NCBI GenBank assembly: GCA_002731875.1
Contig: PCCY01000021.1
Coordinates: 104,600-168,599 of the forward strand
Direction of reading: 5' to 3'
DNA: 64,000 nucleotides
Source: Roseobacter sp.
Lineage (GTDB): Bacteria; Pseudomonadota; Alphaproteobacteria; Rhodobacterales; Rhodobacteraceae
Part shown: positions 29,867 to 36,383 of the stretch, piece after piece
Position numbering within the stretch: the stretch's first letter is position 1
Layout: every line of letters starts with the position of its first letter
Translations under genes and position numbers: made by a program
The notes under the pieces: generated by a model
What the model saw: the letters and a program-made list of their open reading frames with translations, nothing else
Told to the model about the DNA's origin: nothing
The model's database searches: none

Positions 29867-29897
29867 TGTGATCACGGGATTTTAAACTGTGATCACA
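29867..29897. promoter_or_regulatory. Paired TGTGATCACA operator upstream of sdhC
   Basis: Two palindromes, TGTGATCACG (29867-29876) and TGTGATCACA (29888-29897), have centres exactly 21 bp apart. The same pair with the same spacing occurs upstream of sucC. GTGATCAC fits the general GT-N-AC half-site layout of GntR-family regulators. A GntR activator of TCA genes, AkgR, is known in Rhodobacter sphaeroides; linking it to these sites is inference. Confidence 0.7.
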
Positions 29898-29911
29898 AAT
29901 GCCAAAGCGCG

Positions 29912-30676
29912 TCACCCGGTCCATTTGTACCAGGCAAATTGAAGCCGGTGCTTGAGAGATTTCATCAGATAGCCTTTGGCCTTCTTGCGCTTGTTTTCAT
30001 CTTTCTTCTCGGTTGGATTGAAACCGATATGGCGTACATCCCCCGCCGACAGGCTCGCCAATGAAAAACCCTTGAGCTTATGAACAAAGCTGATGTCGCG
30101 TTCCGGCCCGATGTCTCCATAGGGGCCAAAGGCCTGATAGTCCGACATTCTTCGCAATCCGGGGTTGAACGAAAAGCTCCCCCAGCGGCGGTGTGATTTC
30201 GGATCGGTGCGGAAATAGCCGACGCCGTCGAGATGCTGTTCTTCGACGTCAAATATCTTGCGTGGCCATTCCTCCCGCGCCCGCAACATCACGGCGTGGA
30301 TTTTAGGGAACGCATCAAGCAAAGCCCGCGATTCGGTCAAGAACAGGCTGGAGGGGAAAACCCAGTCTTCTTCGCAGTGAAAAACGTAAGGAGTCTTTAC
30401 TTCGCCATAGGCCCGATCAACCGATCGTATCTGCCCCAGGTTTTGCGTATTCTGAAGAAACACATGCGACCTGTCGGCCAGCAGACGGGCGACTACATCT
30501 TTTGTTGCGGCGCAGTCCGAATCCTCGATCACCACGAATTTGTCTATGCCGGTCAGATCGCATGCCAGCATGGAAGTGAGGGTCTGTTCCAGTTCTGCGG
30601 GGCGGTTGCAGCAGGTGATGACGACGGTTGCGAAACCGCTCCGGTCGTCCTGTGCTCCTGCTGCAACCATATTCAT
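29912..30676 (-). CDS. Family 2-type glycosyltransferase
   Basis: A 254-residue GT-A fold protein with the N-terminal nucleotide-sugar segment TVVITCCNRPAELEQTLTSML and acidic motifs VIEDSD and HCEEDWVF. The latter probably provides the DxD-like metal site. The C terminus is very basic (KKDENKRKKAKGYLMKSLKH), suggesting peripheral membrane contact. Acceptor and donor are unknown. Its ATG at 30676 overlaps the mdh stop by one base (TAATG), so it is translated from the mdh message. Confidence 0.8.
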   Translation of the reverse strand: MNMVAAGAQDDRSGFATVVITCCNRPAELEQTLTSMLACDLTGIDKFVVIEDSDCAATKDVVARLLADRSHVFLQNTQNLGQIRSVDRAYGEVKTPYVFHCEEDWVFPSSLFLTESRALLDAFPKIHAVMLRAREEWPRKIFDVEEQHLDGVGYFRTDPKSHRRWGSFSFNPGLRRMSDYQAFGPYGDIGPERDISFVHKLKGFSLASLSAGDVRHIGFNPTEKKDENKRKKAKGYLMKSLKHRLQFAWYKWTG

Positions 30677-31638
30677 TAGTTTAAAGAACCATCAATGCCT
30701 TTACACGCGTCGACCAGACCTTTGACAGCCTTGACGGAATTATCGAACATCGCCTGCTCTTCCTTGTTCATCGAAATCTCGACGACACGTTCGATGCCGC
30801 CGGCACCGATGACGGTTGGCACGCCAACGTAGAACCCGTTCAGCCCGTATGCGCCATCGACGTATGCAGCGCATGGCAGAACACGCTTTTGGTCCTTAAG
30901 ATAGCTCTCGGCCATTTCGATAGCCGATGTCGCAGGGGCGTAAAACGCCGAGCCGGTCTTGAGAAGGCCCACGATCTCGGCACCACCGTCACGGGTACGC
31001 TGGACAATCGCATCCAGTTTTTCCTGAGTGGTCCAGCCCATCTGGACCAGATCCGGCAATGGAATGCCGGCAACCGTGGAATACCGCGTCAAGGGAACCA
31101 TCGTGTCACCATGACCGCCCAGAACGAATGCGGTCACGTCTTTCATAGACACATCGAATTCGACAGCAAGGAAGTGCCGGAAGCGGGCAGAGTCCAATAC
31201 GCCCGCCATGCCGCACACTTTATTATGTGGCAGGCCGGAGAATTCGCGAAGCGCCCATACCATCGCGTCCAAGGGGTTGGTTACGCAGATAACAAAGGCA
31301 TCCGGCGCGTTTTGCGCAATCCCTTCCCCAACCGATTTCATGACCTTGAGGTTAATCCCCAACAAGTCATCCCGGCTCATCCCTGGCTTGCGGGCGACGC
31401 CCGCAGTCACGATGCAAACATCCGCCCCGGCGATATCGGCGTAATCATTGGCACCCGACATGGTGGCGTCGAATTTGGCCGACGGGCCAGATTCAGCAAT
31501 ATCTAGGGCTTTGCCTTGCGGCACACCTTCGGCGATATCGAAAAGGACAACATCGCCCAATTCCTTAAGTGCTGCGAGGTGAGCAAGTGTGCCCCCGATC
31601 TGCCCTGCGCCGATAAGTGCGATTTTAGGTCTGGCCAT
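30676..31638 (-). CDS. mdh: Malate dehydrogenase (LDH-like, bacterial)
   Basis: A 320-residue NAD-dependent enzyme converting malate to oxaloacetate. It has the Rossmann motif [17 protein letters not shown], the acidic strand end VLFDI (NAD preference), the mobile-loop region [10 protein letters not shown], and catalytic His176 in [14 protein letters not shown]. This is the lactate-dehydrogenase-like type typical of alphaproteobacteria. Its stop overlaps the glycosyltransferase start. About 180 bp upstream separate it from the PRC-barrel gene; that gap holds two hairpins and no obvious operator of the TGTGATCACA type. Confidence 0.96.
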
Positions 31639-31750
31639 GTGGTAATCTCCGACAAGGTTGCGTTTGCGCAGGAGATAACGAAATGCAGCGGACCGCGCAA
31701 GTTGCGGTTCGCACTTGTCATGTAGCAGGACAAAACACGCCCAACACGAT

Positions 31751-31800
31751 GGGGCCGTCCCATAAGGAACGGCCCCGGAGTCTGTAGCTGAAATCAGCTA
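31751..31800 (-). terminator. Two consecutive hairpins downstream of the PRC-barrel gene
   Basis: First on the minus strand is TAGCTGA/TCAGCTA with a 2-nt loop (31785-31800). Second is GGGGCCGT/ACGGCCCC with a 10-nt loop (31751-31776). Both are perfect. T-runs are lacking, so termination may be Rho-assisted. Confidence 0.5.
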
Positions 31801-34962: not shown

Positions 34963-34980
34963 CCTATTAAGAGAAGTTCC

Positions 34981-35184
34981 ATGAAACTCTACCGCTTCCT
35001 GTCCGAAGAGGACACATCCGCCTTTTGTCACAAGGTTACCGATGCACTGAACAAGGGCTGGGAACTTTACGGCACGCCCACGCAGACATGGGATGCGAAG
35101 GCAAACGTCATGCGCTGCGGTCAGGCCGTGACCAAGGAAGTCGAAGGCACCTATACGCCTGACACCAAACTGGGGGCACAATGA
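34981..35184 (+). CDS. DUF1737 domain protein
   Basis: A 67-residue single-domain protein with the DUF1737 layout: MKLYRFLSEEDTSAFCHKVT, then ALNKGWELYGTPTQTWD and a final strand including CGQAVTKEV. The fold resembles small beta-alpha proteins often encoded beside metabolic enzymes; no activity is known. It is wedged between nnrU and mch, with GAGAAG upstream of its start, and overlaps the mch start by 4 nt (ATGA). Confidence 0.82.
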   Translation: MKLYRFLSEEDTSAFCHKVTDALNKGWELYGTPTQTWDAKANVMRCGQAVTKEVEGTYTPDTKLGAQ

Positions 35185-36221
35185 TGGCACAGGCCAAGAC
35201 CAACAAGGGCCGTTTCTTCGAGGACTATAAAGTAGGCGAGACGCTGCATCATGCTGTGCCCCGCACGGTCAAGGATGGTGAACGCGCGCTGTACCACGCG
35301 CTTTATCCCGCACGTCATGCGCTTTATTCCTCTGACCAGTTTGCCCAAAGCTGCGGCCTGCCTGCCAGCCCGTTGGACGATATGATCACCTTTCACATCG
35401 TGTTCGGGAAAACCGTGCCGGATGTATCGCTGAACGCCGTCGCCAATCTTGGCTATGCGCAGGGGCGATGGCTGGCTCCGGTCTGGCCTGGCGATACCCT
35501 GCGATCTGAATCCGAGGTGATCGGGCTCAAGCAGAACTCGAACGGTAAAACCGGGGTCGTCTATGTGCGCACCACCGGCTTTAACCAAAACGACACCAAA
35601 GTGCTGGAGTATGTCCGCTGGGTGATGGTGCGCAAACGCGATGCCGACGCCCCTGCTCCCGAAATGGTCGTGCCCGATCTGCCCAAGGCGCTGACAGTTG
35701 ACGATCTGTCGATCCCCGAAACGCTCGACTTCAGCAATTATGACTTTACCCTCGCGGGCGAGGCGCATCGCTGGGACGATTATACGGTTGGCGAGATGAT
35801 CGACCACGTGGATGGCGTCACCGTCGAAGAGGCGGAGCATATGATGGCCACGCGCCTGTGGCAGAACACGGCAAAGGTGCACTTTGACACCTCTGCCCGC
35901 CCGGACGGGTCGCGGCTGATCTATGGCGGGCACGTGATCTCGATGGCGCGGGCTCTGTCGTTCAACGGGCTGGCCAATGCGCAGATGATCGTGGGGCTAA
36001 ACGGCGGGGCGCACGCAAACCCCTGCCTTTCCGGCGACACGATCCGTGCTTGGACAGAGGTTCTGGACAAAGCTGACACTGCCGCCCCCGGCGTCGGGGC
36101 CATCCGGCTGCGGCTGGTCGCCACCAAAGGCGGGGAGCCGTTCAAGCTGAAGGGCGAAGACGGCAAATACCTGCCCGATGTTCTGCTTGACCTCGACTAT
36201 TGGGCACTGATGCCCAAATAA
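35181..36221 (+). CDS. mch: Mesaconyl-C1-CoA hydratase
   Basis: A 346-residue double-hotdog (MaoC-like) hydratase that adds water to mesaconyl-CoA, giving beta-methylmalyl-CoA in the EMC pathway. The N-terminal FFEDYKVGETLHHAVPRTV and the second MaoC unit WDDYTVGEMIDHVDGVTVEE, with IYGGHVISMARAL, match Rhodobacter Mch. It is the last gene of the mcl2 run. Either of two adjacent ATGs (35181 or 35184) could serve; the first overlaps the DUF1737 stop. The product is cleaved by a lyase (Mcl1) not found in this window. Confidence 0.93.
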   Translation: MMAQAKTNKGRFFEDYKVGETLHHAVPRTVKDGERALYHALYPARHALYSSDQFAQSCGLPASPLDDMITFHIVFGKTVPDVSLNAVANLGYAQGRWLAPVWPGDTLRSESEVIGLKQNSNGKTGVVYVRTTGFNQNDTKVLEYVRWVMVRKRDADAPAPEMVVPDLPKALTVDDLSIPETLDFSNYDFTLAGEAHRWDDYTVGEMIDHVDGVTVEEAEHMMATRLWQNTAKVHFDTSARPDGSRLIYGGHVISMARALSFNGLANAQMIVGLNGGAHANPCLSGDTIRAWTEVLDKADTAAPGVGAIRLRLVATKGGEPFKLKGEDGKYLPDVLLDLDYWALMPK

Positions 36222-36352
36222 CGGCGGGTGGCGGATTGTTTGGCAGCCACCAGGCCGCATTTCCAGCGCAGTTGTGTCACTTCAAGAGAATTTGCGAGAT
36301 GCAAGCAATGACAGGCGAAAGTTTGCTTGCCTCCCCACCTCCTTCGGCATTT

Positions 36353-36383
36353 TGTGATCACACGACAAATTCGTGTGATCACA
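36353..36383. promoter_or_regulatory. Paired TGTGATCACA operator upstream of sucC
   Basis: Two perfect palindromes TGTGATCACA at 36353-36362 and 36374-36383 have centres 21 bp apart, 111 bp upstream of sucC. Together they form a longer inverted repeat with flanking TTT and AAA. The arrangement copies that at sdhC. The rest of the 272-bp gap (36222-36493) contains no gene and no strong sigma-70 -35 box, in keeping with an activator-dependent promoter. Confidence 0.72.

Follow-up and report, generated by a model that had tools for sequence, protein, structure and literature searches.

Paired palindromes in front of sdhC and sucC as very probable binding sites of an AkgR orthologue in Roseobacter sp. 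and its family

Imam, Noguera and Donohue are said to have described the AkgR (RSP_0981) regulon of Rhodobacter sphaeroides in mBio in 2015. The available part of one source presents RSP_0981 as a GntR regulator predicted to control succinyl-CoA synthetase, succinate dehydrogenase and 2-oxoglutarate dehydrogenase (sdh, sucCD, and sucAB) (PMC4344238). Furthermore, the accessible portion of a second source lists GTGATCAC among the sites of the activator AkgR (PMC6365646). Here we analyze a stretch of 64 kilobases (kb) from Roseobacter sp. (contig PCCY01000021.1), hereafter the window, in which the palindrome GTGATCAC occurs as two closely spaced pairs, one in front of sdhC and the other in front of sucC. 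These pairs are very probably binding sites of an orthologue of AkgR, a GntR-type regulator encoded on the same contig outside the window.

Twin palindromes in the window and the source genome

The start-to-start spacing of the two palindromes is 21 base pairs (bp) in both pairs, and the pairs lie about 6.5 kb from each other, in front of an sdhC gene on the minus strand and a sucC gene on the plus strand. The four sites, read directly in the window and recovered in the genome pattern search, are as follows:

29867–29876, no strand: putative operator, gene-proximal site of the sdhC pair (TGTGATCACG)
29888–29897, no strand: putative operator, distal site of the sdhC pair (TGTGATCACA)
36353–36362, no strand: putative operator, distal site of the sucC pair (TGTGATCACA)
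36374–36383, no strand: putative operator, gene-proximal site of the sucC pair (TGTGATCACA)

The core GTGATCAC is found at these four places of the window and nowhere else in it. This agrees with the first-pass annotation, which had described the same arrangement in front of both genes, with coordinates and spacing that proved correct on rereading, and no further copy in the 64 kb. The same annotation called the operators identical, which is true of the 9-mer TGTGATCAC and not of the tenth base, because three of the four sites are TGTGATCACA and the remaining one ends in G. It had also singled out mdh as a gene without the motif; the region upstream of mdh (31639–31818) indeed has no GTGATCAC within one mismatch, and mdh was rejected as a target in the window on this ground. 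Sites matching TGTGATCACR with up to one mismatch occupy 12 strand-places in the window, at the chance level of 9.3 expected from shuffles, and those beyond the four operators (2061 and 32449) are single and unpaired. The excess over chance thus lies in exact pairs and not in the relaxed motif.

The source genome (4,132,734 bases, or 4.13 megabases, in 38 contigs) contains the pattern GTGATCAC N{3,33} GTGATCAC at exactly two places, the sdhC and sucC pairs, and the reversed-pattern control has no match. The genome-wide scan that the first-pass annotation had proposed hence returns the pair at sdhC and sucC only, and not frequently outside genes of the tricarboxylic acid (TCA) cycle. The 9-mer TGTGATCAC occurs 15 times in forward and 14 times in reverse orientation (reversed pattern, 2 and 0), with most copies outside the two pairs located within listed reading frames. 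One single copy directly precedes a GntR gene (C21:685495–686142).

Conservation of the pair and its co-occurrence with akgR

We searched 149 genomes (148 genera) of the source bacterium's family for pairs with spacings of 18–24 bp and found them in 133 (once in 25 genomes, twice in 102, and three or four times in 6), with zero matches to the reversed-pattern control. Of the 30 loci returned by this search, 28 precede sdhC or sucC. We read 82 distinct pairs, comprising 74 of the 75 listed (from 38 of the 133 matching genomes; the one left out, G044:C57:99915, has a spacing of 18) and 8 from four family genomes in a class-level sample. Forty of them precede sucC, 38 precede sdhC, one precedes sucA, and three are elsewhere. 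The spacing at the 79 target pairs (sdhC, sucC, or sucA) is 21 bp in 72 and 20 bp in 7. The comparison of relatives advocated in the first-pass annotation shows the pair in most of the sampled family members, and its conservation at the same two operons supports the proposal made there of one regulator for both.

The outward flanks of the pairs are T-rich before the first site and A-rich after the second, most strongly at sucC, and A/T is favoured in the middle of the 13-bp spacer. Additional dyad symmetry within the spacer was rejected, as complementarity outside the sites and the bases directly flanking them matches roughly what column make-up predicts. Longer arrays of three or four GTGATCAC sites occur upstream of some sucC genes (L161, steps of 21-21; L169, 21-21-26; L183, 21-26). 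In one relative (G042), a pair with a spacing of 21 (L064/L115) precedes fumC, encoding a class II fumarase (L115:1494–2999; NCBIfam fumC_II over cut-off); this is the third 21-bp pair in that genome, which would fit the recruitment of a further TCA gene into the regulon. Two further pairs are probably due to chance, one within a reading frame (L063, spacing 18) and one where no target gene was found (L261, spacing 24).

The gene preceded by the single TGTGATCAC copy encodes a candidate regulator of 216 amino acids with GntR and FCD domains (Pfam, both over cut-off). The protein is 75.7% identical to an AkgR-type protein of G051, whose gene is located just 3' of sdhB and beside both pairs. A search across named organisms returned Cereibacter ovatus (94%) and not R. 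sphaeroides. Matches at E ≤ 1e-40 were present in 135 of the 149 family genomes; G019 (E 6e-41) and G054 (41% identity) were counted as lacking AkgR, their matches being at the level of a paralogue. With this count, pair and gene are both present in 130 genomes, the pair alone in 3, the gene alone in 3, and neither in 13, an agreement of 143 out of 149 (Fisher p = 1.8e-13, kinship ignored); the raw cut at E ≤ 1e-40 gives 131, 2, 4 and 12, respectively. One of the gene-only genomes (G040) has both pairs, before sucC and sdhC, with one mismatch each, as found in a one-mismatch search whose neighbours were checked at the 17 places turned into loci.

Among the 13 genomes with neither pair nor gene, 12 gave sdhC and 12 gave sucC loci (G021 being the remaining genome), and these 12 AkgR-less genomes, which keep both genes, lack a pair in the 500 bp upstream, where the closest candidates differ at 3 to 7 positions. 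Because 143 of the 149 genomes have or lack pair and gene together and the 12 AkgR-less genomes have no pairs, the AkgR orthologue is very probably the regulator that binds them. The first-pass annotation had named AkgR as a candidate, which gains support from this co-occurrence and joint absence, from a single site before akgR (described below), and from the published AkgR links. Most of the 80 named akgR loci end short of sdhC or sucC; in the 12 upstream regions that reach these genes, the exact pair is present in 11 and a pair with one mismatch in the twelfth (L146, sdhC). The 80 loci hold 13 site pairs at 21 bp and include the longer arrays of L161, L169 and L183.

Outside the family, 285 genomes of the class-level sample were searched with spacings of 10–40 bp, examining one locus per matching genome (a second pair in G162 was left out). 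Eighteen have a pair, at scattered spacings (21 bp in 2 of the 18), and none of these 18 loci has sdhC or sucC. By comparison, all four family members in the sample carry two pairs each with a spacing of 20 or 21, and AkgR matches of at least 76% identity are confined to them; 11 other genomes have relatives with 33–41% identity. Two of the 18 loci (L215 and L232) adjoin genes for AkgR-like GntR proteins, which suggests paired sites in other GntR regulons. Their spacings are 21 and 24, and the L232 pair is flanked by the GntR gene on one side and an aldehyde-dehydrogenase-like gene on the other.

Promoter layout and the proposed mode of regulation

The position of the pairs relative to the predicted promoters bears on what the regulator does. 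The promoter elements and genes of the two operons are:

29782–29787, minus strand: predicted −35 of sdhC, GTGACA (element conserved in relatives; pair-to-CGTGAC gap of 79 bp)
29760–29765, minus strand: predicted −10 of sdhC, TATCTA (comparison of relatives' sdhC upstream regions)
29337–29720, minus strand: sdhC (Pfam Sdh_cyt; start moved by reading to the ATG at 29720)
28955–29326, minus strand: sdhD (Pfam Sdh_cyt)
27118–29001, minus strand: sdhA, longest open reading frame (Pfam FAD_binding_2 and Succ_DH_flav_C)
25003–25815, minus strand: sdhB (Pfam Fer2_3 and Fer4)
36453–36458, plus strand: predicted −10 of sucC, TATAAC
36494–37687, plus strand: sucC (Pfam ATP-grasp_2 and Ligase_CoA)
38732–39619, plus strand: sucD (NCBIfam sucCoAalpha over cut-off)
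39697–42660, plus strand: sucA, 2-oxoglutarate dehydrogenase E1 (NCBIfam over cut-off)
42664–44250, plus strand: sucB, 2-oxoglutarate dehydrogenase E2 (NCBIfam sucB over cut-off)

GTGAC lies downstream of the pair in 31 of the 38 sdhC upstream regions and is followed, 16 bp on, by a −10 element resembling TATnAA. The gap from pair to CGTGAC (n = 26) is 56–59 in 21 regions, 47 in 2, 69 in 1 and 79 in 2. In a larger search for the pair plus CGTGAC at gaps of 50–80, 203 of 394 genomes match. The 150 rows listed, which represent 149 of the matching genomes and include at least one place other than sdhC (the G146 row is sucC), have gaps of 56–59 in 133, 68–70 in 9 and 76–79 in 6, with stray gaps at 53 and 65. 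The 17 listed rows that fall outside 56–59 stay in helical phase more closely than a uniform draw would (p 3e-5, kinship ignored). The gap of 79 in the window is two turns past the common 57–58, and the proximal site centre falls at about −97 in the common sdhC layout, −119 at sdhC of the window and −87 at sucC of the window, values that differ by about whole helical turns. In the window, transcription is predicted to begin near 29753 (minus strand) for sdhC and near 36465 (plus strand) for sucC. Because the pair moves in helical steps from the sdhC −35, the layout favours an upstream activator that would act from one face of the helix. An element resembling GCGCCAAAAAACC (up to 3 mismatches) is present in 11 of the 38 sdhC upstream regions, in 10 of them at an offset of 21–24 after the pair and before the −35; at this frequency, it was rejected as a second element common to sdhC promoters.

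The akgR promoter is laid out differently. In the 30 best-matching loci of the AkgR search, which are the nearest relatives, exactly one site precedes akgR in every case, beginning 12–61 bp before the aligned start. TTGAC lies upstream of this site by 18 bp in 27 loci and by 20 bp in 2, and is absent in 1. This spacing places the single site in the −10 region of akgR, as for a repressor, and it probably reflects autorepression.

Together, these patterns suggest a model in which two dimers of the AkgR orthologue, a GntR/FCD protein, would bind the twin palindromes side by side on one helix face, two turns apart. The 20- or 21-bp spacing leads us to infer that they bind cooperatively. From roughly 87–140 bp upstream of the predicted transcription starts, the dimers would jointly activate the sdh and suc operons, and a single site over the −10 place would probably let AkgR repress its own gene. 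We regard pair binding, joint activation and autorepression, taken as one explanation, as likely. A broader version has about an even chance of being correct: AkgR may be a position-coded dual regulator across the family, activating from a phased 21-bp pair far upstream and repressing from a single copy over the akgR −10. The pair would then form a single composite operator of 29 bp that accommodates a dimer of dimers, with arrays of three or four sites in some lineages and the fumC pair of G042 as variants.

Several observations weigh against this model. Two gene-only genomes, G122 and G147, have AkgR and no pair; they are 76% and 73% complete, respectively, and neither gave an SdhC match or a normal SucC match. 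Conversely, G019, G096 and G114 carry pairs without a clear AkgR match (G096 is 77% complete; G114, at 100%, and G019, at 91%, are both in many contigs). In a SucC tree of 53 rows, with the 12 AkgR-less genomes labelled absent and all other rows present, pair absence needs at least four changes, and the well-supported (starred) branches force only one; the co-occurrence and phasing tests ignore such kinship. The sucC promoter is weakly defined, as TATA at a gap of 70–72 is found in 11 of 40 upstream regions. Lastly, a site shortly upstream of the start is present in only 15 of the 80 named akgR loci (a few loci were cut there), so the autorepression arm depends on lineage.

Would AkgR instead bind the pairs as a repressor of sdh and suc, acting either from upstream or through a loop that joins the two pairs? 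GntR proteins are mostly repressors, and the two pairs often lie some 5–10 kb apart on one contig in the family listing. However, the pairs stand clear of the predicted core promoters and in helical phase with the sdhC −35, and in some genomes (e.g., G001, G063 and G093) they are on different contigs or in distant parts of the chromosome, which argues against an obligatory short loop. AkgR is also termed an activator in the available part of PMC6365646. For these reasons, we consider repression of the two operons unlikely.

Binding by another regulator, such as a GntR paralogue with about 40% identity (C21:748023–748640), is a little less probable still. The paralogue is present in the source genome and in part of the family (many genomes have two matches), and GTGATCAC is also associated elsewhere with related GntR proteins (L215 and L232; PMC6365646, as far as available). 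Yet in many two-pair genomes (e.g., G001, G002 and G003) the AkgR orthologue is the sole match at E ≤ 1e-40, G054 lacks the pair and matches only at paralogue level, and the paralogue locus of the source genome (L318) lacks GTGATCAC. An 8-bp palindrome that recurs by chance, or that serves DNA structure or methylation with no regulator involved, would fit the single GTGATCAC copies elsewhere in the genome, mostly within reading frames, and the chance-level count at one mismatch in the window. Such an origin is extremely improbable and was rejected given the uniqueness of the pair in the genome, its conservation in the family against zero control matches, its fixed genes and spacing, and its joint absence with AkgR from genomes that keep both genes. 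If AkgR does activate both operons, one control point would couple succinate dehydrogenase, succinyl-CoA synthetase and 2-oxoglutarate dehydrogenase across about 130 sampled genera. The natural series of spacings and phases would also provide test material for activation by a protein of the GntR family, a group better known for repressors.

The neighbourhood of the pairs has some additional features. The sucD, sucA and sucB genes come after sucC on the same strand. Translation of sdhC probably begins at the ATG at 29720 (MADVNRG..., 127 amino acids) rather than at the upstream TTG of the longest reading frame, and the true sdhA start is probably further in than that of its longest frame, which overlaps sdhD. 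Two open reading frames lie between sdhA and sdhB in the presumed sdh operon, one methyltransferase-like (25835–26692, minus strand; FkbM-like by reading) and one small (26647–27024). The sdhC pair is separated from mdh by a glycosyltransferase-2-like gene (29912–30676, minus strand; Pfam), whose end is 15 bp away from the pair.

Comparison with described regulators

McbR of Escherichia coli, a distant relative with other targets, is likened to the candidate here by protein sequence alone and not by operator; it is the closest solved structure by sequence (GntR/FCD, E 2.5e-19; PDB 4p9f). A second regulator of R. sphaeroides, the LacI-family protein CceR (RSP_1663), is also predicted on sdh and mdh in the available part of PMC4344238. 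CceR differs in its motif, GTT N6-8 AAC, for which a search of the window for exact matches found none in front of sdhC, mdh or sucC, and a CceR operator at these three promoters was rejected on this basis. PS417_07240 of Pseudomonas simiae, a GntR protein of the deoxyribonate genes, shares 32% identity with AkgR, and a GTGATCAC site has been proposed for it at −47 to −40 relative to the start codon (PMC6365646, in part). This system differs in serving a catabolic gene cluster from one site, and the available text (section 9) reports no twin arrangement.

The AkgR regulon of R. sphaeroides, although from another genus, is the nearest match. The candidate belongs to the same protein family and is probably orthologous, the target operons are the same (sdh, sucCD and sucAB; PMC4344238, in part), and the same GTGATCAC core is present at all four sites of the window (PMC6365646, in part). 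No account of the twin 21-bp geometry, of the phasing with the promoter or of the lone −10 site at akgR was found in the literature searched; the primary AkgR paper, which was outside the search, may describe them. The regulon is thus known in outline, and both the twin-site observation and the assignment to AkgR are well supported. To that outline our analysis adds the family-wide twin geometry, the joint absence of pairs and akgR, the promoter phasing and the layout of the akgR promoter.

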